24,335 nt of DNA from a virus (IMGVR_UViG_3300028027_000234:1-24335); one strand, 5' to 3'. Shown: positions 5,210 to 19,042, numbered from the stretch's first letter. The notes: generated by a model not told the origin, from the sequence alone. Program-made: numbers and translations.

Positions 5210-6871
5210 ATGAAAAAATTACTTACGATTGGGATATTTTTTTTAATATCTTTCTATTCATTCGGTCAATTAACGGTTAATCAATCTATAGTTAGTAGAC
5301 CATCATATAAAGTTGGTGACACGATTCAAGTTAAATATACGGTCGCTAAAGGGACAACCACACCAAGATATTTTTGGTTAAGATACCAATATAATAATAA
5401 AGCGTTATCGTATGTTAATACGACTTGGTCTCAAGGTAGTTCAGTTCAAACGTTTTATACTAATTGGAGTAACTACAGTTTTACCCCAAATTCAACTAAA
5501 CCAACAATAAGTCTATATGAACAATACCTAATGACTCCGTGGAGTTATGCTGCGAATCCAAATTGGAGTGTTGGTCAATTAACCGTACAAAGAACAGACG
5601 CATCTATTGATGGGGACATTGCAACTCAAAGATACGTAATAAAGGATTTGGATTCATATACTAACATACACAAATTAGATTTATCTTATTCGATTGACGC
5701 TACGGGAGCAAATATATCTCCGGTTAGTACATCAACAGGATTAGTATCTCTAAGTAACGTCATTGGTAATACGTCTCAATTTAAGGTTAGGGTATTGTTT
5801 CCATCGGGATATGACATATCGGCACATAGTGTATCTTTATTACCTTTAACAACCGCGGGTGAAGTTAATTGGACGGCTCAAGCAATTGCAACAAAAATAT
5901 TAGACGCAACTGGCGAAGCGTTATTCACAACAGAAGTAAAGGTTGGAGATTCATTTGCAGTATTTGTAAATGCATCATTACAAAAACCATTTATGAATAA
6001 CATCGTTACCGTATCAGATGCATATAAAGCGTTTTTAGGTGTATCTCAAACTGATATTGGTGGTAATGGTACTTATTTCACTTATCCTGTATTAGAAAAA
6101 AATATAGGTCTTATTACTAAAAACAAAACAACTTTTAGTGAAAGTGATTCTTATAATTTATTCGCACACGTAATGGGTATTGACGTTTCACCTAGTGCCC
6201 TTATACCATCAAATGCCGCACCTGTGAATGGTGTTGTTAATTTCAAATGGATAACCGGTTTATTAAATCAAAGTTGGTTGGATGGTGTACCAAAATATAA
6301 AACTACAGTAACAACACCAATTCAAGCTGTTGATATGGTATATTCATGGGGTGGAGATTTAGATTTCTCACATTCATCATCACCAAGTGAAATTGCATCA
6401 AGAATATCAACGGGAAATTATTCAAATTCAGTTAATCCTGGTACGGTTGGTAGTTTAAATAGAACAATGTCAATGACAACTATGTCATATAATGCACCAA
6501 AATTAGAGAATGCAACATTAAGTATAACCTCAACTTTAGAAACCGGTAAAGTTATATTAAGAGGTACATTAACTAAAGCGGATTTGGCCGGATTACAAGT
6601 TATAATGAATTACGACCAAAGTAAATTAACGTTAGATAATGTAATATTTGACGCGGGTTCTACAATAACTAACTTTTCAACACATGAAAATGGTAGGTTA
6701 ACATTTGGTTCTATCGACCAACAAAAAACTGCAAGAATTAAGGTTGGGACACCTTACACATTAGTGTTCACACCGAAAACAACTTTAACAAATACCGCTG
6801 GTTTATTCTACTTTGTATTATCCGACGCAATTGACGGAGGTGGTAAGAAAATAAATTTAGTGATTGAATAA
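5210..6871 (+). CDS. Secreted adhesin-like protein with dockerin-like and cohesin-like C-terminal modules
   Basis: A 553-residue secreted protein. Signal peptide 1-19 ends SFG|Q. Residues 21-125 form a beta-rich domain opening with a stretch typical of Ig-like domains (SYKVGDTIQVKYTV). Residues about 150-255 look like a second beta domain. Residues 266-425 are a dockerin-like region: VSDAYKAF, a degenerate first loop near 306-316, and a second loop GGDLDFSH at 381-388, ending with RTMSMTTMS. Residues 430-553 resemble a cohesin-type beta sandwich (GLQVIMNYDQSKLTLDNVIF). The last two modules are paralogous to those of the next gene. It is Asn/Thr/Ser-rich and has no Cys. The likely place of action is the cell surface or medium; ligand unknown. 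Confidence 0.7.
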   Translation: MKKLLTIGIFFLISFYSFGQLTVNQSIVSRPSYKVGDTIQVKYTVAKGTTTPRYFWLRYQYNNKALSYVNTTWSQGSSVQTFYTNWSNYSFTPNSTKPTISLYEQYLMTPWSYAANPNWSVGQLTVQRTDASIDGDIATQRYVIKDLDSYTNIHKLDLSYSIDATGANISPVSTSTGLVSLSNVIGNTSQFKVRVLFPSGYDISAHSVSLLPLTTAGEVNWTAQAIATKILDATGEALFTTEVKVGDSFAVFVNASLQKPFMNNIVTVSDAYKAFLGVSQTDIGGNGTYFTYPVLEKNIGLITKNKTTFSESDSYNLFAHVMGIDVSPSALIPSNAAPVNGVVNFKWITGLLNQSWLDGVPKYKTTVTTPIQAVDMVYSWGGDLDFSHSSSPSEIASRISTGNYSNSVNPGTVGSLNRTMSMTTMSYNAPKLENATLSITSTLETGKVILRGTLTKADLAGLQVIMNYDQSKLTLDNVIFDAGSTITNFSTHENGRLTFGSIDQQKTARIKVGTPYTLVFTPKTTLTNTAGLFYFVLSDAIDGGGKKINLVIE

Positions 6872-6874
6872 TTT

Positions 6875-9187
6875 ATGAAGAAACTAATTGTTGTACTATT
6901 TTTATTAACATCATTTTTAGGGTTCGGACAGAGTGTATCTGCTCCGGACTCTAAGTCGTTTACACAATCCACTAGCGGACAAGATGCTAGTGGATTTGTT
7001 TTAAATGGTTTTAACTCAACGTCAACTCTCTTAGCTTCAATCAGTTTAGTGGAATTTCCAACAGGTACAACATTCGTATTAAACACAACAACGGGTTTAA
7101 CCGCAGCAAGTGGATTTACTTTAAGTGGTAACAAAACTCGTTTAGTGGTAACGGGTACAATGGCAAGTATCAATGCTGCGTTAGCATCTTTGAAAGTAAA
7201 TACGGGTTCAACAAAGGGTAATGTAAAATTATCGGTTGCGGCAACAATCAACCCAACGGGATTTTATTATAATGGTGTAAATGGACATTTTTACAAACCC
7301 GTAACAATTGGTACAACATATACTGGTGCTAGAGCGGCATCGTTACTAACAACATTCAAAGGACAGACAGGGTATTTGGTAACAATAACATCTGCATCTG
7401 AAAACGCTTTTATATATGCTAATGTACCACAAACTAATGTATGGTTTGCAGCAACGGATGAAGTTACTGATGGTAGATGGGTAATCGATGCGGGACCTGA
7501 AAAGGGAACTGTAATGAAGACCTCTAATGGACAACTTGCCGGAAATATAGCTGGTGTTTATAACAACTGGGCGGGCGGTGAACCAAATGGTGGTAATCAT
7601 AGTGAGGATTACGCGGTAACAAACTGGGGTGGGCAATCAACGTGGAACGATTTATCAAACAATTGGAATAATCCATACATAATTGAATATGGTACTTGGG
7701 CTAATCCAGATGATGCCACATTTACTGAATTTTATACCAATAGTGTAACCCACTCAAATGGAGAAGTTCTAACTGCACGATTTAATTTTGATTTTGGTGG
7801 TAACGTAGATGAAACTAAATTTTCATCAAAAGCAAATACATACATAAACAATATGTGGGGTGTAACAACTAATACATCAAGAGCAATAAGTGGATTGGGT
7901 AAAGTTGATATCACTAATGATTTGGACACAAACAAGATTAATACAGGATTTAAACCGATAATAACGGGTGGTGGGGTAGAATGGTCATATGTAAATCCAA
8001 ACGCAACTTGGATGGGTGTTGGTGTTAGTAGGTTGTTAATTGATATGAGACAATTTGGAAGTGTGGACCCAACAACAGTTACAAAAGTTAAAATATTAGA
8101 CGTGTATGATGGTTCAGTTAGTTATTTATCTCACGATGCAAATGGTTGGGCTCAATATAGTGTTCCATCTATTTTAACAAAGGTGACTGACGGTACATCG
8201 TCGTTTAATCAATATATTAGAAATGTGAATGGTTCAAACACAGATTACGCATTTGCTTGTAGTATATCATTTGAACAAACAACCTCATTTAAACAACACG
8301 GAATAGACCTGTCGTATACTAATCAAACAGATTTAAACACTTTATATAACAGTATTGTAACTGTGTCAGATGTATTCTTAGCATTTAAAGAGTTATCGAA
8401 TGGTGGATTATTTGGAAATCAAAGTGGATTAGAGTTTACGTCGGGTGTCCAATTTATGAACGCGGATGTGGACGGTAATGGTATATTTAACGAAGCGGAT
8501 ACCTATAAGTTATTACAACATTTAACAGGTACTCAATCATTAACACAATATTCCACATTAACATACCTAATGAAACTATATAGTAAATCCGAATATGACG
8601 GTATTTCTAAATCTAATTGGAATACACAATTCAATGCAAGTAGAAGTTTGTATCCGTTTAATTTGAATAGCGGTACATTGAATAACACATATAATGTGAA
8701 TGTAACTTGGGTGGGTGATGTCAATCTATCCCACTCTGCTCAACAATCGATAAGTGGAATTGCAAGTAATTCCATTAGAACAATGAGTATGAGTACTATG
8801 AGTACATCAGTTGCGAATGAGATAAACGCATCTATAATTACCGAAATGGTTGGAGACGTAATATATGCGTATGTTACGTTGGACCCATTACAACAAAACG
8901 TAGTGGGGACTCAATTTCAAATAAATTATGATAATTCAATTTTAAAATTTGAAAATGTTGAATTTAAAACAAAAGGCAACCCAATGAATTATGGAACCAA
9001 TAGAGGGACATACGTGAACGTTGGGTCACTAATAACCGATGGGTCAACATCGTTGGATAAAACGACTGAATACATAGTGAAATTTACTAAGACATCAAAT
9101 ATTACAAATGTTTTGGGATTAATTTCGGTGGGTAATACTGAAGCTGTAAATCAAAGTGGACAGTCGTTAAAAATAAAAATAAATTAA
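6875..9187 (+). CDS. Secreted adhesin with C-type lectin domain plus dockerin-like and cohesin-like modules
   Basis: A 770-residue secreted protein, three bases after the previous stop. Signal peptide 1-18 ends GFG|Q. Residues 20-122 match adhesin/cadherin-type repeats (GNKTRLVVTGTMASINAALASL). Residues 129-275 are a C-type lectin-like domain: a start like FYYNGVNGHFYK, NNWAGGEPNGG with the EPN sugar/calcium motif at 236-238, SEDY, and WND at 257-259. No disulfide Cys, as in many bacterial versions. Residues about 290-465 are a beta-rich region. The dockerin-like part has loop DVDGNGIFNEAD (531-542) and GDVNLSH (614-620), then RTMSMSTMS. Residues 647-770 are cohesin-like (GTQFQINYDNSILKFENVEF). 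Probably binds surface glycans and may self-associate. Confidence 0.82.
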   Translation: MKKLIVVLFLLTSFLGFGQSVSAPDSKSFTQSTSGQDASGFVLNGFNSTSTLLASISLVEFPTGTTFVLNTTTGLTAASGFTLSGNKTRLVVTGTMASINAALASLKVNTGSTKGNVKLSVAATINPTGFYYNGVNGHFYKPVTIGTTYTGARAASLLTTFKGQTGYLVTITSASENAFIYANVPQTNVWFAATDEVTDGRWVIDAGPEKGTVMKTSNGQLAGNIAGVYNNWAGGEPNGGNHSEDYAVTNWGGQSTWNDLSNNWNNPYIIEYGTWANPDDATFTEFYTNSVTHSNGEVLTARFNFDFGGNVDETKFSSKANTYINNMWGVTTNTSRAISGLGKVDITNDLDTNKINTGFKPIITGGGVEWSYVNPNATWMGVGVSRLLIDMRQFGSVDPTTVTKVKILDVYDGSVSYLSHDANGWAQYSVPSILTKVTDGTSSFNQYIRNVNGSNTDYAFACSISFEQTTSFKQHGIDLSYTNQTDLNTLYNSIVTVSDVFLAFKELSNGGLFGNQSGLEFTSGVQFMNADVDGNGIFNEADTYKLLQHLTGTQSLTQYSTLTYLMKLYSKSEYDGISKSNWNTQFNASRSLYPFNLNSGTLNNTYNVNVTWVGDVNLSHSAQQSISGIASNSIRTMSMSTMSTSVANEINASIITEMVGDVIYAYVTLDPLQQNVVGTQFQINYDNSILKFENVEFKTKGNPMNYGTNRGTYVNVGSLITDGSTSLDKTTEYIVKFTKTSNITNVLGLISVGNTEAVNQSGQSLKIKIN

Positions 9188-9479: not shown

Positions 9480-10373
9480 GTGAAAAAATTATTATTAATC
9501 ATATCGTTAGTTTTAATTGGATTTGTATCAAACGCACAAATCGTAAAACCCGATACATTACAATTATCACCAAAAGAATTATTTGGTGAAAGTGGAGATT
9601 GGAATAACTTGGGAATATTGGAATCTTATATTGATTTTTCAAAAGATGTTCTTTCATCATCAAACTTATCAGTTGGTATAATTGGAAAGCAAGTGTCCAC
9701 TACCTTAAATTTAGGATATAGTAAATCATCTAAAAATGGTAAATGGGGACATTCATTTTCATCATCAATAAATCCGATATGGAATTATTATGGTGTGGGA
9801 TATGGTTTTAGTAGAAATACGGACACAAGAACAACCACATTACAATCATTCTATTCAACCGATTTTGATTTTCAAAAGGACATTACACTATCATTCATCG
9901 ATGTGTTTAGAACTAAAAAGTTTGGAACATTTGGTTACAGTGTAATTGCATCAAAATCATTTTGGGGAACATACGAAGGTGAGTGGGAAGGAAAATATAC
10001 AGTTGATTCAGATGGTAACTTTTTAGATTTAATTTATCCAACTATGCCGGCATCGAGTCAAATTAGTTATAGAGGTATGATGATGTACACATACACATTA
10101 AAAACAAAAAGAGTTAATATTTCACCTCAAGTATTTGCCATGAGTGATATCTACCATGTATTCAAAGATGGTACCTCATCCGATTTAGCATATGTAGATG
10201 ATTTCAATTTAGACCTGTATTATGGTACATCTATGGATTGGAAAATAACTAAAAGATTTATTTTAAATACTAACGTAAGATTCAACAAAACGTGGGATAA
10301 ATTAAGTGAGTCAGTTGGTTATAAAAAGAGTAACCCAATAATGTTTATGATAGGAACAAACTTTCAATTTTAA
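9480..10373 (+). CDS. Outer-membrane beta-barrel protein, paralogue 1
   Basis: A 297-residue protein with a GTG start. Signal peptide 1-19 ends SNA|Q. The rest alternates polar and hydrophobic/aromatic residues in strands of 9-12 residues with short turns and ends in Phe (MFMIGTNFQF), the signature of an outer-membrane barrel recognised by BamA. The last 90 residues share an ordered motif with the proteins at 10373 and 14595: ISPQVFAMS, then GTSMDWKITKRF, NTNVRFN, then an IG-x-x-F end. An ATG start is not available at a better position, and the signal peptide fixes the start at GTG. Stop and next start overlap (TAATG). Role: pore or surface anchor, inferred. Confidence 0.75.
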   Translation: MKKLLLIISLVLIGFVSNAQIVKPDTLQLSPKELFGESGDWNNLGILESYIDFSKDVLSSSNLSVGIIGKQVSTTLNLGYSKSSKNGKWGHSFSSSINPIWNYYGVGYGFSRNTDTRTTTLQSFYSTDFDFQKDITLSFIDVFRTKKFGTFGYSVIASKSFWGTYEGEWEGKYTVDSDGNFLDLIYPTMPASSQISYRGMMMYTYTLKTKRVNISPQVFAMSDIYHVFKDGTSSDLAYVDDFNLDLYYGTSMDWKITKRFILNTNVRFNKTWDKLSESVGYKKSNPIMFMIGTNFQF

Positions 10374-11137
10374 TGAAAAAACTAATATTAATATTTTTAT
10401 TAACACCATTTATTTCATTTTCTCAAGACGCAAAAAATAGAGAAATGCAAATGCAGGTTAATAATTTACAACCACCTCCACCTCCAGGTCAAAAAGGTTC
10501 GGTGGTAAAAACAAATGCGTTTTTAACGTCATCTGATTTTGTGTTCTTACAAAAACCAACATATGAGAGTGGGTGGTTAAAGGCACTTTCATTAGGCGGA
10601 GGTAGAACATCACTTAATGGCGTCTATTCATATGGAGGTAATGGATTTGTAACAACAGAGGGTTCACAATATGGTGTGTCGGGATATGTTGGAAAAGGAA
10701 CAAATAACCTATTTCTTTCTTTCACGCGAATAGGTAATAATAAAACAACAACATTAACCTATGTAAAATTATACAAAGGAAAATGGAATAAAGGATTTGG
10801 TATAAATGCATCAAATAATTTCAGTCAAATAACCGATTCTTTACCTCCAATGTGGACAGGTGCTCCATCGGTAATGGTGTTCATAAATAGAACGTATGGT
10901 ACGGGTAGATTTACAATTACACCCGATTTACTATTAAGCTATTCTCATATGTATTGGGACATGGGATTGGGGAATCAAAAGATAGACCCAACATTTAACG
11001 CATTGGTAGGTACTTCATTTGGATATAGATTCTCTAAAAGATTTACCTTATTAGTGGCTTATAGAGGTAATATCAATACAAATCCTAAGTTTGGATTAAT
11101 GAATAACATTTCAATAGGTAATAAATTCAATTTATAA
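10373..11137 (+). CDS. Outer-membrane beta-barrel protein, paralogue 2
   Basis: A 254-residue protein. Signal peptide 1-17 ends SFS|Q. After it comes a short Met/Gln-rich link and the proline run PPPPPG (residues 35-40), which may cross or reach the peptidoglycan or the barrel mouth. The remainder is a beta-barrel pattern with the shared C-terminal order FTITPDLLLS, VGTSFGYRFSKRF, YRGNINT, NNISIGNKFNL. It is translationally coupled at both ends (TAATG before and after). Its barrel is shorter than that of paralogue 1, by perhaps two to four strands. Confidence 0.73.
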   Translation: MKKLILIFLLTPFISFSQDAKNREMQMQVNNLQPPPPPGQKGSVVKTNAFLTSSDFVFLQKPTYESGWLKALSLGGGRTSLNGVYSYGGNGFVTTEGSQYGVSGYVGKGTNNLFLSFTRIGNNKTTTLTYVKLYKGKWNKGFGINASNNFSQITDSLPPMWTGAPSVMVFINRTYGTGRFTITPDLLLSYSHMYWDMGLGNQKIDPTFNALVGTSFGYRFSKRFTLLVAYRGNINTNPKFGLMNNISIGNKFNL

Positions 11138-11484
11138 TGAAAAAAATTATATTAATATCGTTGATTTTATTGGTTGGTTGTACTAAACCTGAATTACCTG
11201 TACCGACACCTGAAGTTACGGTGAGTGACATCTTTAGTGTTAAAGAAAGTACAGTTACCGACGGTCAAGAAATAAACTTTAAATTGGAAAAGGAGGGTTC
11301 ATATACGTTAACACTAAAAGATAGTACATTGAACCAAGTAGTGACAAGGGAAAGATTCCAAGGTAAGGTAGGAATAAATAAATTAAAAATTTACACTAAA
11401 TCTATACAGACCAAGTATTTATATTTAACGCTGGTAGATAATAGTAATAATCAAATAGGTAAGACTATTATAAACCTAAAATAA
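11137..11484 (+). CDS. Lipoprotein with a beta-sandwich domain
   Basis: A 115-residue lipoprotein. The lipobox LLVGC places the lipidated Cys at residue 15, followed by TKPELPVPTPE, a Pro-rich spacer. The rest (about 30-115) is a small beta sandwich. Its end pattern, GKVGINKLKIYTKSIQTKYLYLTLVDNSNNQIGK, lines up with that of the next protein, so the two are paralogues. The fold resembles Ig-like and type IX secretion C-terminal domains. It probably sits in the outer membrane with the neighbouring barrels; TAATG overlaps on both sides show coupled translation. Confidence 0.72.
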   Translation: MKKIILISLILLVGCTKPELPVPTPEVTVSDIFSVKESTVTDGQEINFKLEKEGSYTLTLKDSTLNQVVTRERFQGKVGINKLKIYTKSIQTKYLYLTLVDNSNNQIGKTIINLK

Positions 11485-11876
11485 TGACAAAAATGGAAAA
11501 AATGAAAAAATTACTTACGATTGCATTCGTTGCGCTTATCCTTTCAGGATGTGAAAAAGACGATTTTATCCCCGATTCTTCAGTTGTGGTCACCCCACAG
11601 TTACAAATAAAAAATTCCGTTGGTATTAAACTAGAAACTTCATTTGTTTCAAGTGAAGTGTCTATGAACGTTAAAACCGAATTTGGTGGAAATGTAACAA
11701 TTAAAATATTCGACATTTCCAATAGAATCGTATCAAAAGAAAATGTAACAGTAAAAGTTGGTGATAATATCTTAAAGGTATACACGTCAGCCCTACCTGT
11801 GTCGGCATATAGAATTGCAATATATGACGATAAAGACAATATGTTAGGAATAACAGATTTCAATAAAATAAACTAA
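11484..11876 (+). CDS. Lipoprotein, probably surface-exposed, with a T9SS-tail-like fold
   Basis: A 130-residue lipoprotein; the start could also be the Met at 11502, which begins a more normal signal peptide. Lipobox ILSGC at about residues 19-23. The residues after Cys are EKDDF, close to the flavobacterial lipoprotein export signal (acidic residues after a Lys just past the Cys), which sends lipoproteins to the outer face of the outer membrane. The domain that follows reads like a type IX secretion C-terminal domain: VTIKIFDISNRIVS, VKVGDNILKVYTSALPVSAY, then RIAIYDDKDN. As it is attached by lipid at the other end, this is likely a shared fold and not a sorting signal. Paralogous to the previous lipoprotein. 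Confidence 0.72.
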   Translation: MTKMEKMKKLLTIAFVALILSGCEKDDFIPDSSVVVTPQLQIKNSVGIKLETSFVSSEVSMNVKTEFGGNVTIKIFDISNRIVSKENVTVKVGDNILKVYTSALPVSAYRIAIYDDKDNMLGITDFNKIN

Positions 11877-11895: not shown

Positions 11896-12222
11896 ATGTC
11901 AGAAGAACAAGAACAAAGTAACGACGGAACACTATCTGGATTAAAGAAAACCATAATTGGTGTAATAACAACCGCAGTTATGGGGTTAGGAACTTGGGGT
12001 GTAACTCAAATTACAGGTGGGGATGAACCCGCACCAGTACAACAAGCGGCTCCGGTAATTAACATTACAAACTCAAACCAACAGCAACAACAAGCTCCAG
12101 GTAAAACGGTTATTATTCAAGGAGGAAATGGTGGGTCTAACACAAAAACAACACCAGCACCTGCACCTAAACCTAAGAAAAAAGAAGGTGATGAGTTTAA
12201 GGAAGAAGCACCTAAATGGTAA
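11896..12222 (+). CDS. Small single-pass membrane protein with Gln and Pro-rich tail
   Basis: A 108-residue protein with no cleavable signal. A polar N-terminus (1-15) precedes one membrane helix at about 17-40 (TIIGVITTAVMGLGTWGVTQI). Then come a Pro/Ala linker, a Gln run (residues 62-66), a Gly/Asn-rich strand region (TVIIQGGNGGSN) and a Pro/Lys tail. The low-complexity tail would lie in the periplasm if the N-terminus stays inside. First of five small membrane proteins in a row. Function unknown. Confidence 0.68.
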   Translation: MSEEQEQSNDGTLSGLKKTIIGVITTAVMGLGTWGVTQITGGDEPAPVQQAAPVINITNSNQQQQQAPGKTVIIQGGNGGSNTKTTPAPAPKPKKKEGDEFKEEAPKW

Positions 12223-12241: not shown

Positions 12242-12841
12242 ATGAAAGAAGAAACAGGTGGTTTTAAAGAATTATTAGGAAGTATGATGAAACGTAGATG
12301 GTTCATCACGGCTATCGTATTAGGTGGTTTTATGATAATCATCATGGGTATATTTGGAGCAATCCTAAATAAATCAGCAATAGAGGGAGAGTGGAAAGAA
12401 CTTCTTCTATTATTATTGGGAGCATTTATTGGTTCTTATGGTAAAATCATTGACTATTGGTTTAGTGATACCGATAAAGATAAGATGTTAGTTCAGAAAA
12501 TGGACGAGGAAGATGGTACTTCATTATCGAATACTGCCGATTTACCAAATAATCCAATTGTTCCAATGAGTGTTACTCCATTAGTGTTACCAACATCAAA
12601 TGAAGAAGTTGGACAAATTGTCCAAGTAACTGACCAAGTAAAAAAGGGTGTTGAAATTGATGAAGACGGTGACGGTGTAATGGATGGTTTAGATATCGAT
12701 GGTGATGGTAAAATTGATGAATATTTTACACACAGACAATGTGAACACGTTTGGGGTGACTTAGACGGAGACGGAATTGAAGAATGTTTAAAATGTGGTA
12801 AGGTTAAAGACGAAATGGCTGAAATACACATGGAGGGTTAA
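12242..12841 (+). CDS. Two-helix membrane protein with calcium loops interleaved with a zinc ribbon
   Basis: A 199-residue protein. Two membrane helices lie at about 19-42 and 52-70, the second reading LLLLLLGAFIGSYGKIIDYWF, a style seen in phage holin-like proteins. After a Pro-rich link comes a region with three DxDGDG loops (DEDGDGVMD, DIDGDGKIDE, DLDGDGIEE), the form of calcium-binding loops in dockerins and thrombospondin type 3 repeats. The third loop lies inside a CEHVW ... CLKCGK zinc-ribbon frame, so a Cys/His metal site encloses a calcium loop. N- and C-termini are on the same side of the membrane. No matching known family comes to mind. Confidence 0.65.
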   Translation: MKEETGGFKELLGSMMKRRWFITAIVLGGFMIIIMGIFGAILNKSAIEGEWKELLLLLLGAFIGSYGKIIDYWFSDTDKDKMLVQKMDEEDGTSLSNTADLPNNPIVPMSVTPLVLPTSNEEVGQIVQVTDQVKKGVEIDEDGDGVMDGLDIDGDGKIDEYFTHRQCEHVWGDLDGDGIEECLKCGKVKDEMAEIHMEG

Positions 12842-13597: not shown

Positions 13598-14317
13598 ATG
13601 AAAAAATTTACAACATCATTAATTTTGGTACTAATATCGATTGCGTCCATGGGACAAACAATTGGAAGTACCAAAACGGAACAATATAAAGCATCTTTCG
13701 AAACCAAGATTGATATTAGTCAATTTATGGATTATGAAGGTCCACAAATTCCTATTCAAATTTTAAAGGCGGGTATATCAGATGAAATGTATGAGATGTA
13801 TCCTGAATTAAAAGAAAAACGTGTAGGTTTGGGTGTTGCAAATATCACTATGGAATATTTGGAAAATCTTAATCGTTTTAAATTCACTGAAGATAAAACA
13901 GAGATTAAAAATAGAATGGTAAAACAATTTCAAGCATCTCAAGCTGGAATTTCAGAAAACAAATTAGATGGTAGAGGTAAGATTAATTTAGCAAAGTATT
14001 TTGTTACAATTGAGTGTTACGATTATTCAGTTTCAGAAGATGAATCAATTAACGTTAGAGACGGTGTGAGAGACAATATGGTAACTCGTATAGGTCTTCA
14101 GGTTAGATTTACCGATGCCGAAACTGGTGTCCTATTTGGGGCAAGTGGTTTAGGTGAAGCAACGACAAATCGACAATTAACATTATTATCAGACGCAACT
14201 GTTGACCCAATTAAATTCAATCAATCAACAATATCAATTGCAACTAAAAAGGCTTTAGATATTGCATGTGCAAGAATATTGGACCGTATGGTTAAGAAAG
14301 GTATTTTTACCAAATAA
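13598..14317 (+). CDS. CsgG-like curli-type secretion channel protein
   Basis: A 239-residue exported protein. Signal peptide 1-19 ends SMG|Q, so unlike E. coli CsgG it is not a lipoprotein. The body follows the CsgG order: strand KRVGLGVANIT (74-84), helix with IKNRMVKQFQAS (103-114), KINLAKYFVTIECYDYSVS (128-146) matching the buried strand of CsgG, a strand pair TRIGLQVRFTDAETGVLFGASG (163-184) like CsgG's LRVVNVSTGEIL region, and a final helix TISIATKKALDIACARIL (211-228). CsgG forms an outer-membrane nonamer that exports curli subunits. No CsgE, CsgF or curlin-repeat protein is evident here. Last gene of the operon, followed by a strong terminator. Confidence 0.75.
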   Translation: MKKFTTSLILVLISIASMGQTIGSTKTEQYKASFETKIDISQFMDYEGPQIPIQILKAGISDEMYEMYPELKEKRVGLGVANITMEYLENLNRFKFTEDKTEIKNRMVKQFQASQAGISENKLDGRGKINLAKYFVTIECYDYSVSEDESINVRDGVRDNMVTRIGLQVRFTDAETGVLFGASGLGEATTNRQLTLLSDATVDPIKFNQSTISIATKKALDIACARILDRMVKKGIFTK

Positions 14318-14594: not shown

Positions 14595-15998
14595 ATGAGA
14601 AAATATGTTGTTTCATTTTTTACTATTTTTTTATTATTAATTTATCAAGATGTTAAAGCTCAAGTATTCACACAAACGTTCATAGACAAATGTACGGGAC
14701 AAACGAGAGTGGCAACAACAACATATGTTAATGGTAATGCCGTTGTTTCATTTTATGGTGATGTTAAGACATTTACACCACAAGAGGTACAAACGGGTCA
14801 ATTACAAGCTTGGTTACAATTAACATACGCAACGTACACTGCTATGACCTGTCCGCCCGCGGTGGTTGTTCAACAAACAGTTGTTCAACAAACAGTAGCA
14901 CAGGCAGTAACACAGGCGGCAGCGGCAGCAGCTTCATCAGCGGCATCTTCAGCTGCGTCTTCGGCAGCAAGTAGTGCCGCAAGTAGTGCAGCCTCTTCAT
15001 CGGCATCATCGTCGGCAGCCTCATCAGCATCATCATCGGCGGCTTCGTCATCAACACCACCACCCACTTCTAGTTCTTCGTCAAGTAGTTCTTCGTCAAG
15101 TAGTTCTTCATCTGAAGGTAGTTCTTCATCTGGAGGTAGTTCGTCAGAATCAAAAACAGAAAGTAGTTCAGAATCAAAAACTGAATCAAAGTCTGAAAGT
15201 AAAACCGAAGAAAAAAAGGAAGAATCAAAATCGGAATCAAAAGAAGAAAAGAAAGAGGAATCTAAATCTGAAGAAAAAAAGGAAGAAGAAAAGAAAAAGG
15301 AAGAAGAAAAGAAAAAAGAGGAAAAGAAAAAACAGCAATCACAAAATCCAATGTTAATTGCTTCCGATTTAACAACATCTGAAGACCCAGATGGTAAATA
15401 TAATGTTGTGGCTTCGGTGGGTGTATCGAAATCATCACTAATGGGTGACGTATCATATAGTGCCAACGTTATGATTTGGTCCACTTTAAATCAATTTGCG
15501 TTGTCCACTGGTATGACAAAAATGAATATGGATAGTAAAGGTAGACTATCATCGATAAATAGTTACTCAAGTACTGTAGCGTATCTACAAGGTAATTGGA
15601 TGGGATTATTGGGATATACGTGGATTAAACCACACCCAAAATTAGGGACGTTTGGTTATAACGTTGGGTTGATTACATTACTATTGAAAGGAACCGAACA
15701 AAAGTTTGATTTAAATCTTTCAACTTCAGTTGTTGCATTTTGGACTAAACCATATCAATATAGTAAAAAATTAACGTTATCCCCTCAAGTGTTTACAATG
15801 TATTCACCATTAAATTATAATACGTTCTCGGGAGGAACTACAGTTGGTAGACATTTTGGATTTTTAGTTGGGTCAAGTTTTGATTATAAAATAACTAAAA
15901 GATTTGGTTTTAGTTTTAATTATAAAATGAATTTAAACACTCTACCCGGAACAAGGATTACAAATAACTTTTTAATTGGTTCAAGAATTATGTTGTAA
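14595..15998 (+). CDS. Outer-membrane beta-barrel protein with long low-complexity stalk, paralogue 3
   Basis: A 467-residue exported protein. Signal peptide 1-22 ends KA|Q. Residues 24-88 form a small domain with Cys33 and Cys86 (TFIDKCTGQTR ... YTAMTCPP), likely joined by a disulfide, in the style of a recurring phage N-terminal module. Residues 108-249 are low complexity: AASS units, a Ser run, then alternating Ser/Lys/Glu ending in Lys/Glu. Residues about 253-467 are a beta barrel sharing the C-terminal order of the 9480 and 10373 proteins: LSPQVFTMY, VGSSFDYKITKRF, NYKMNLNT, NNFLIGSRIML. It ends in Leu, not the usual Phe. The stalk could span the periplasm or hold the small domain away from the cell. 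Confidence 0.77.
   Translation: MRKYVVSFFTIFLLLIYQDVKAQVFTQTFIDKCTGQTRVATTTYVNGNAVVSFYGDVKTFTPQEVQTGQLQAWLQLTYATYTAMTCPPAVVVQQTVVQQTVAQAVTQAAAAAASSAASSAASSAASSAASSAASSSASSSAASSASSSAASSSTPPPTSSSSSSSSSSSSSSSEGSSSSGGSSSESKTESSSESKTESKSESKTEEKKEESKSESKEEKKEESKSEEKKEEEKKKEEEKKKEEKKKQQSQNPMLIASDLTTSEDPDGKYNVVASVGVSKSSLMGDVSYSANVMIWSTLNQFALSTGMTKMNMDSKGRLSSINSYSSTVAYLQGNWMGLLGYTWIKPHPKLGTFGYNVGLITLLLKGTEQKFDLNLSTSVVAFWTKPYQYSKKLTLSPQVFTMYSPLNYNTFSGGTTVGRHFGFLVGSSFDYKITKRFGFSFNYKMNLNTLPGTRITNNFLIGSRIML
14916..15341 (+). repeat. Low-complexity coding repeat (Ala/Ser, Ser, Lys/Glu)
   Basis: The DNA coding for residues 108-249 of the stalked barrel protein. The first part uses mixed Ala and Ser codons, which lowers exact repetition; the end is an almost pure purine run of GAA, AAA and AAG codons. 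Repeats of this kind can change length by slippage in whole codons. Confidence 0.85.
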
Positions 15999-17020: not shown

Positions 17021-19042
17021 TTACATTATTTTTTTTCCAATTGATAAAATACCATCTTTGTTACATTTAATATTTACCAATTTACCTTCTTTTATCTTAC
17101 CTCTTAAGATTTCATCACTTAAGAAGTCCTCACAAAGATTTTGAATGATTCTTTTTATCGGTCTTGCACCGTATCCTTCATTTTTATTTAAAGATAAAAT
17201 CTTCTCATTAACATTCAAATCGAAATTAATGATGTAATTTTTCTCTGCAAGTCTATCAACTAATTTGATTAATTCGATATCGATAATCTTCATTAATACA
17301 TCATCAGTCAACGGATTAAAAACTATAATATCATCAATTCTGTTTAAGAATTCAGGACTAAATTGTTGCTTTAAAGATTTATCAATAATGGTCTTTTTAA
17401 CTTGGTCACTTTGACTTTCTTTAGATGTGGTATTAAATCCAACTCCACCACCAAATTCAACAACTTTTTTTGCTCCGATGTTTGATGTTAAGATGATTAA
17501 GGTATTTGTAAAATTTACCTTTCTACCAAATGAATCTGTTAAATGTCCCTCATCTAAAATTTGAAGTAATAAATTGAAAACATCTTTGTGTGCCTTTTCT
17601 ATTTCATCAAATAAAATGACAGAGAATGGGTTATTTTTAACTTTCTCAGTTAATTGACCTCCTTCATCATAACCGACATATCCAGGAGGAGAACCGATTA
17701 ATCTCGACACACTATGTTTTTCCATAAACTCACTCATGTCAACCCTAATAACATTATCTTCTGAACCAAATAATGTACTGGCAATTGTTTTCGCAAGGAA
17801 TGTTTTACCTACACCAGTTGAACCTAAAAAGATAAATGAACCAATAGGTCTCGATGTATCTTTTATACCTACCCTACTTCTTCTTATTGATTTTGAAATG
17901 ATTGAGACAGCATTTTCTTGTCCAATAACTTTTTCACCTAAAATATTTTCTAATTCAAGTAACTTTTGGGTTTCATTAACATCCAATTTAGTTATAGGTA
18001 CTCCCGTCATTTCAGACACTATGTCATATACATCATTTACAACAACAGGTACTTTGTTATCTTTTTGACTTATTACCCAATTTTCTTTTTCCTCCTCTAA
18101 TTTTTTCTGAACTTTTTTCTCATCGTCCCTTAATTTTGCTGCCAATTCATAGTTCTGATTTTTCACAACTAATATCTTTTTTTCCTTAATAACGTCAACT
18201 TCTTTTTTAAGTTGTTCAATTATTTCAGGAATTTTAGTTGACACCTTTTTTTCGGACCCTAATTCATCTAAAATATCAATAGCCTTATCTGGAAATTGTC
18301 TATCGGTGATGTATCTCGAAGATAATAGGACAATTGTATCTATTACACCCTCACCGTATGAGACTTTATGGAATTCTTCGTAAGATGGTTTTAAATTATT
18401 TAAAATTTCAGTGGTTTCACTTGCTGTTGGTTCTTTCAATGTGATTTTTTGGAATCTTCTAACAAGTGCACTATCCTTTTCTATATGTTTTTTATATTCA
18501 TCAAACGTTGTTGCACCTATACATTGCATTTCTCCTCTAGCTAACGCGGGTTTCAATATATTGGCTGCGTCCATAGCTCCACTTGCGTTCCCTGCACCAA
18601 CCATGGTATGTAATTCATCGATGAATACAATTACATTTGGATTTTCCTGTAACTCATTTAAGATAGCCTTAATACGTTCCTCAAATTGTCCTCTATATTT
18701 TGTACCGGCAACCAATGATGTTAAATCTAAAGAGACTAAACGTTTATCTAAAAGGTTATTTGGGCAATTTCCTTTATGTATCATTATGGCTAATTTTTCA
18801 ACTAATGCAGATTTTCCAACACCAGCGTCTCCCACAATTACTACGTTATTTTTCTTTTTTCGAGATAATATCTGTGATATTCTTTTAACTTCTTTATCTC
18901 TACCCACAACTGGGTCAATTTTACCTTCTTCGGCCATTTTGATTAAATCTCTTGAGAAATTATCTAAAATTGGTGTCGTTGAGCCAGGTCTTCTACTCTT
19001 TTGATTTTGTCTCGGTCCTTCTTCAAAGAAATCTACTGCCAT
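17021..19042 (-). CDS. ClpC-like AAA+ unfoldase lacking the N-domain
   Basis: A 673-residue two-ring Clp ATPase. It lacks the Clp_N repeat domain of host ClpA/B/C (usually about 810-860 residues) and begins with a short linker, then PILDNFSRDL. AAA-1: Walker A GDAGVGKS (71-78), Walker B VIVFIDE (137-143), Arg finger near 195-196. A short UVR/M region at about 295-320 is ClpC-like. AAA-2: Walker A GSTGVGKT (407-414), Walker B VILFDE (475-480), NRID Arg finger at 568, sensor 2 GARPIKR (625-631). VGFN at 534-537 matches the ClpP-docking loop of ClpC, so it can probably feed host ClpP. No ClpP gene is in the window. Unfolds proteins with ATP in the cytoplasm; the target is unknown. Confidence 0.92.
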   Translation of the reverse strand: MAVDFFEEGPRQNQKSRRPGSTTPILDNFSRDLIKMAEEGKIDPVVGRDKEVKRISQILSRKKKNNVVIVGDAGVGKSALVEKLAIMIHKGNCPNNLLDKRLVSLDLTSLVAGTKYRGQFEERIKAILNELQENPNVIVFIDELHTMVGAGNASGAMDAANILKPALARGEMQCIGATTFDEYKKHIEKDSALVRRFQKITLKEPTASETTEILNNLKPSYEEFHKVSYGEGVIDTIVLLSSRYITDRQFPDKAIDILDELGSEKKVSTKIPEIIEQLKKEVDVIKEKKILVVKNQNYELAAKLRDDEKKVQKKLEEEKENWVISQKDNKVPVVVNDVYDIVSEMTGVPITKLDVNETQKLLELENILGEKVIGQENAVSIISKSIRRSRVGIKDTSRPIGSFIFLGSTGVGKTFLAKTIASTLFGSEDNVIRVDMSEFMEKHSVSRLIGSPPGYVGYDEGGQLTEKVKNNPFSVILFDEIEKAHKDVFNLLLQILDEGHLTDSFGRKVNFTNTLIILTSNIGAKKVVEFGGGVGFNTTSKESQSDQVKKTIIDKSLKQQFSPEFLNRIDDIIVFNPLTDDVLMKIIDIELIKLVDRLAEKNYIINFDLNVNEKILSLNKNEGYGARPIKRIIQNLCEDFLSDEILRGKIKEGKLVNIKCNKDGILSIGKKIM

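Follow-up and report, generated by a model that had tools for sequence, protein, structure and literature searches.

A conserved phage gene pair with predicted cohesin folds and dockerin-like modules may encode an exported lectin scaffold

Cohesins and dockerins are the modules by which bacteria assemble cellulosomes, and assembly of this kind is known from cellular organisms. Two adjacent genes in a 24.3 kb virus record (the window, by which we mean the whole stretch of 24,335 nucleotides analysed here) raise the question of whether a phage encodes such a system, and what it would be used for. An earlier note on this DNA had described their products, proteins A (553 aa) and B (770 aa), as secreted phage adhesins that share a C-terminal pair of dockerin-like and cohesin-like modules. 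Both open reading frames were confirmed at the coordinates below. They belong to a run of genes for signal-peptide or lipobox proteins, located between the nine tRNA genes and homing-endonuclease-like genes in the left part of the window and the gene for the terminase large subunit, which follows the A/B cluster after about 8 kb and occupies the right end. At 1975-2975 the tRNA genes are interspersed with two homing-endonuclease-like genes, and positions 17021-19042 encode a ClpA/ClpB-like AAA protein that shares about 55% identity with one encoded in a Flavobacteriaceae genome. The features of the two proteins, as identified or predicted, are the following.

5210..6871 (+): protein A; signal peptide, cohesin, X-like module, degenerate dockerin-like module, linker, cohesin
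5210..5266 (+): A signal peptide, residues 1-19, with Gln20 at the predicted +1 position (invariant, 55/55)
5267..5767 (+): A predicted N-terminal cohesin, residues about 20-186 (AlphaFold2 pLDDT about 90; VIA Z 13.7 to 2jh2, rmsd 2.2 over 130 residues)
5768..5977 (+): A X-like module, residues about 187-256, beta-rich by DSSP of the model, preceding the dockerin-like module
5978..6409 (+): A dockerin-like module, residues about 257-400, helical, calcium loops degenerate (hhalign 98% to the B module)
6353..6376 (+): A GDLDFSHS motif, residues 382-389 (D, S, H and S invariant, 55/55)
6410..6499 (+): A linker with RTMSMTTMS (mean identity 36%, largely predicted disordered)
6500..6868 (+): A predicted C-terminal cohesin, residues 431-553 (VIA Z 12.2 to 6kg8 over model residues 430-553; hhalign 99% to the B cohesin)
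6875..9187 (+): protein B; signal peptide, beta-rich N-domain, C-type lectin, middle region, dockerin-like module, linker, cohesin
6875..6928 (+): B signal peptide, residues 1-18, with Gln19 at +1 (invariant, 60/60)
7364..7681 (+): B C-type lectin domain, Pfam match over residues 164-269 (PF00059, 23.8 bits, cut-off 22.6)
8327..8770 (+): B dockerin-like module, residues 485-632 (Dockerin_1 in 31/48 members)
8465..8500 (+): B intact EF-hand calcium loop DVDGNGIFNEAD of the DxDGNG type, residues 531-542, second hand (canonical in 59/60 B)
8714..8737 (+): B GDVNLSHS motif, residues 614-621, near invariant (S and H in 58/58 ungapped B)
8810..9184 (+): B predicted C-terminal cohesin, residues 646-770 (VIA Z 14.6 to 6kgf_C, rmsd 2.2 over 125 residues)

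We used families of A-like and B-like proteins from IMG/VR (about 86 loci each) for the comparative analysis. Among the 84 viral loci having both genes, A precedes B directly on the same strand in 83, with intergenic gaps of -11 to +6 bases. Several of the records exceed 200 kb, suggesting that many carriers are jumbo phages or large fragments thereof. The C-terminal approximately 285 residues of A and B are homologous (BLAST E 1.6e-12, 31% identity), and profile-profile comparison with hhalign gave probabilities of 98% for the dockerin part and 99% for the cohesin part; the two proteins thus do end in the same pair of modules. Scans of the single sequences against Pfam, PHROGs, NCBIfam and PDB sequences found nothing for A and the lectin alone for B, so that family-wide scans and structure were required for module assignment. 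For this purpose, AlphaFold2 models of A and B were built from 48-row alignments.

The models support the cohesin-like C-termini that had been claimed for both proteins. The top structural matches of the B C-terminus are all cohesins, from cellulosomes and related systems; its best viral match comes from an uncultured phage and has an annotated secretion sorting domain. The full-length A model, whose top matches are likewise all cohesins, matches them twice, at residues 16-186 and 430-553, with the dockerin-like module in between. The first of these, which the earlier note had overlooked, has no reliable profile similarity to other cohesins and is identified from its predicted structure. Profile searches, which had been proposed as a check, gave matches at the level of the families, with the Pfam Cohesin model found in 43/48 B members and 20/48 A members, but neither window protein exceeds the cut-off (B scored 22.8 against PF00963, cut-off 24.1). 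The cohesin-X-dockerin structure of Clostridium thermocellum (3kcp_A) aligns loosely over A residues 20-385 (rmsd 8.7), and the distances of the X-like and dockerin-like modules of A are correlated (partial r 0.79).

The dockerin-like module of B was compared with 23 true dockerins from Ruminococcus-type genomes. The two-hand profile of B matched these with a probability of 89% and a score of 32 (hhalign; column-shuffled maximum 14); profiles made from the lectin, the N-domain and the cohesins of these phages gave no match to true dockerins. Both hands of B are in register with the true dockerins, giving the tandem arrangement of two F-hands described by PF00404. PF00404 also describes two calcium loops with Asp/Asn ligands, and B has one canonical loop, in the second hand. 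In the first hand the helix and the loop Asp12 are kept but most other ligands are gone, with no acidic residue at position 1 or 3. In the model the loop region consists of a helix (55-61), the loop (62-73) and a second helix (71-82). None of the 55 A family members has a canonical EF loop, in agreement with the proposed distinction between an intact loop in the 770-residue protein and a degenerate one in the 553-residue protein. When compared with true dockerins, the A module scored 16.7 against a shuffled maximum of 15.5, which is no direct match; its sole link to dockerins runs through B.

The sequence motifs previously noted fared differently. The loops and the GD-x-x-x-SHS motif are conserved, the latter being near invariant in both families and aligning with GDVTSTG of a scaffoldin dockerin from a related phage lineage (lineage iii, below). 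Both window proteins do contain RTMSM[ST]TMS, yet the string does not qualify as a signature of the families, since the linker around it is poorly conserved (identity 36% in A, 51% in B) and largely predicted to be disordered; in A the pLDDT is below 50 at residues 409-417 and averages 42 over the block 411-420. The modelled cohesins and the B dockerin-like module thus support the claim that both partner types occur on one chain. As modelled, A has a scaffoldin-like layout, with two predicted cohesins and a conserved, degenerate dockerin-like module.

The term adhesin is a reasonable inference from the C-type lectin, which B has and A lacks. In B and its equivalents in window-type phages, the N-domain and lectin (window 6932-7696, B residues 20-274) co-vary with one another and hardly track the remainder of the two proteins. 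Because they vary as a unit of their own, the lectins look as if exchanged between phages, as would fit changing glycan targets. These data suggest that lectins are swapped.

The invariant Gln at +1 of both proteins (55/55 A, 60/60 B) fits the Q-rule of Bacteroidetes, whose exported proteins have Gln at this position (PMC5837995, PMC10653852). By their sequences, A and B are thus of the exported type, consistent with their earlier description as secreted phage proteins. The hosts of these large phages are probably flavobacteria-like. A survey of 199 genomes from one Flavobacteriaceae family found a cohesin in 3, against 20/20 phage records (PF00963 over cut-off in 13/20). This rarity in genomes of the putative host family indicates that the partners of the phage dockerins are probably phage proteins. 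When GTDB genomes were scanned with the profile of the B C-terminus, no relative in cellular organisms emerged; nor did a search of the 199 Flavobacteriaceae genomes find one, a weak result as that search had no positive control.

Similar clusters occur in other phages, so that the system is larger than the earlier note described. The cultured Flavobacterium phage immuto (NC_055915) has a parallel cluster, gp013-gp018. Its gp013 consists of a lectin and a dockerin-like module with the loop DVNNDSRFTVSD, gp014 of cohesin-like and dockerin-like modules in the order cohesin-X-dockerin, and gp015 of a cohesin (36.7 bits) and a type IX secretion system (T9SS) sorting domain (44.8 bits, TIGR04183). 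The assignment of the gp014 cohesin is based on a structural match to B (A0A7T8ESD7, taken as gp014 by length) and on alignment with the fused scaffold described next, whose N-terminal part scores as cohesin in one relative (G018:82300). Equivalents of gp015 were found in twenty IMG/VR loci (L091-L110), one of which is immuto itself. In two more lineages, L111/L112/L117 (lineage iii) and L113-L115, the scaffold is fused into a single protein of 634-658 aa in the order cohesin-X-dockerin-cohesin-sorting domain, which matches gp014 plus gp015 end to end; the 658-aa protein of lineage iii is such a fusion. Across immuto and these two lineages, a cohesin (36.7-43.2 bits) and a T9SS sorting domain (31-50 bits) are thus found on the same chain. 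The lectin proteins of the fused-scaffold lineages carry an extra laminin-G-like domain, and in the phage lectin proteins at L118:2249-3997 and L113:6695-8389 such a domain either interrupts the C-type lectin domain or is attached to it. In the 186 kb record of lineage iii the cluster adjoins a GH19 endolysin gene. No sorting domain over cut-off was found in A, in B or in any of the 15 window-type records (0/15). The fused-scaffold profile gave three matches in the 199 Flavobacteriaceae genomes, each covering the sorting domain only.

The correspondence extends downstream of the cluster, where immuto gp016-gp018 correspond to three window genes.

11896..12222 (+): small membrane protein resembling immuto gp016 (N-terminal similarity)
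13598..14317 (+): secreted protein sharing 52.5% identity with immuto gp017, possibly CsgG-like
14595..15998 (+): low-complexity protein with a beta-barrel-like C-terminus, equivalent of gp018

Matches to equivalents in window-type loci reach E values of 9.5e-18 for gp016 and 4.6e-15 for gp018, and the 13598-14317 protein is a conserved neighbour in all four lineages. A CsgG Pfam match was obtained for one of its 13 relatives (E 2e-4), which leaves the CsgG identity weak. The C-termini of the proteins encoded at 9480-10373, 10373-11137 and 14595-15998 resemble outer-membrane beta-barrels, and with three such C-termini the cluster may remodel the envelope. The genes at 11137-11484 and 11484-11876 encode paralogous small lipoproteins (hhalign 100%). 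ORFs of similar size in several window-type phages gave sub-threshold TIGR04183 hits; the lipoproteins themselves are weakly similar to T9SS sorting domains (about 70%) and are tentative candidates for detached ones. A membrane protein encoded at 12242-12841 has an acidic tail rich in DxDGDG (DEDGDGVMDGLDIDGDGKIDEYF, GDLDGDGIEE).

On balance we favour the interpretation that A supplies the scaffold and B the lectin subunit of an exported phage cohesin-dockerin complex displayed on the infected cell. It is based on the cohesin folds (Z 12-15), the Pfam counts, the dockerin match of B and its loop (59/60), together with the pairing of A and B (83/84), the +1 Gln, the parallel clusters, the shared flanking genes and the rarity of cohesins in genomes of the putative host family. 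Counted against it are the single calcium loop of the B dockerin and the lack of any in A, the 0/15 window-type records with a sorting domain, and the absence of covariation between dockerins and partner cohesins. According to this model, the host Sec system would export A and B by their signal peptides, and the complex would sit outside the infected, flavobacteria-like cell. A would present its two predicted cohesins, into one of which the calcium-loop dockerin of B may dock; as B also has a cohesin, its dockerin could plug into another B. The product would be a branched or chained lectin coat. The T9SS sorting domain on related scaffolds would place them at the cell surface, and in window-type phages this tag would have been lost or replaced. 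Given relatives with a bacterial surface-export tag, infected cells probably display a sticky scaffold made by the phage. The B lectin would bind glycans of cells or particles, the most likely purpose being a glycan-binding coat on the infected cell. Such a coat might stick the infected cell and the lysate to neighbouring cells or particles, which we slightly prefer, or mask receptors against other phages, the two being close to evens. We propose more tentatively, at a little under an even chance, that flavobacteria phages build a cellulosome-like, calcium-dependent surface lectin scaffold, some via the host T9SS, which controls adhesion or superinfection.

A potential concern is whether the modules bind one another at all. 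The cohesin and dockerin folds could serve as Ig-like or calcium-stabilised spacers in secreted lectin proteins, as might be expected from the divergence of the dockerins (one calcium loop in B, none in A). Analysis of covariation between the dockerins and the cohesins of the other protein also gave no pairing-specific signal, and noncellulosomal cohesin and dockerin modules of unclear role exist, as cited in PMC9012536. We consider such spacers unlikely, because both partner types co-occur in four phage lineages whose lectins and fusions differ, host genomes rarely have a cohesin, and the calcium loop of B has been kept in 59/60 members.

In phages, lectins and Ig-like domains are frequently carried on the virion, and the terminase large subunit gene lies within the window about 8 kb away, so A and B could be adhesive fibres decorating the phage particle. 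This is improbable given the signal peptides with an invariant +1 Gln on both proteins, the T9SS sorting domains of their relatives, and the envelope-type flanking genes, with a GH19 lysis gene adjoining the cluster in lineage iii. The earlier note envisaged a head-to-tail polymer of A and B with A as a directional end-cap, since each chain has a dockerin and a cohesin and the dockerin loops of A are degenerate. With two cohesins and a conserved dockerin-like module, A would be a scaffoldin-like branch point and not a cap. There is also no evidence for the B dockerin binding the B cohesin, their covariation being uninformative because they are neighbours on one chain, and we regard the end-capped polymer as very improbable.

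If the exported lectin scaffold is correct, a conserved phage cohesin-dockerin cluster that recurs in many environmental phage contigs would represent a new viral way of remodelling the host surface, and the T9SS sorting domains on phage proteins would show phages routing their own cargo through the T9SS. Because immuto is in culture, the claims for a surface scaffold and for the T9SS are directly testable. In the open-access literature searched we found no account of a cohesin-dockerin system in a phage, and a phage isolation paper on the same host strain as immuto makes no mention of lectin, cohesin or immuto itself.

Among known systems, noncellulosomal cohesin and dockerin proteins from bacteria and archaea (Peer et al. 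2009, as cited in PMC9012536), including the ANME scaffoldin-like proteins, are alike in bearing cohesin and dockerin on non-cellulolytic, scaffoldin-like chains; they are cellular, whereas in the window system a lectin comes with a gene pair conserved in phages. The C-terminal sorting domain of T9SS type A cargo (TIGR04183, described in PMC11285876) is also found on the immuto-type and fused-scaffold phage proteins, but none over cut-off is present on A, on B or elsewhere in the 15 window-type records. The immuto cluster gp013-gp018 shares with the window the lectin-dockerin, cohesin-X-dockerin and cohesin proteins and the three downstream neighbours, and differs in that its scaffold is spread over two genes, its gp015 has a T9SS sorting domain, and the sequences are distantly similar. 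Relative to cellulosome scaffoldins and adaptors such as C. thermocellum CipA (3kcp), the present system is phage-encoded, has lectins in place of enzymes or cellulose-binding modules (none were seen), and in the window has dockerins with at most one calcium loop; it is like them in the cohesin fold, in the order of cohesin, X-like module and dockerin, and in having several partner modules per chain.
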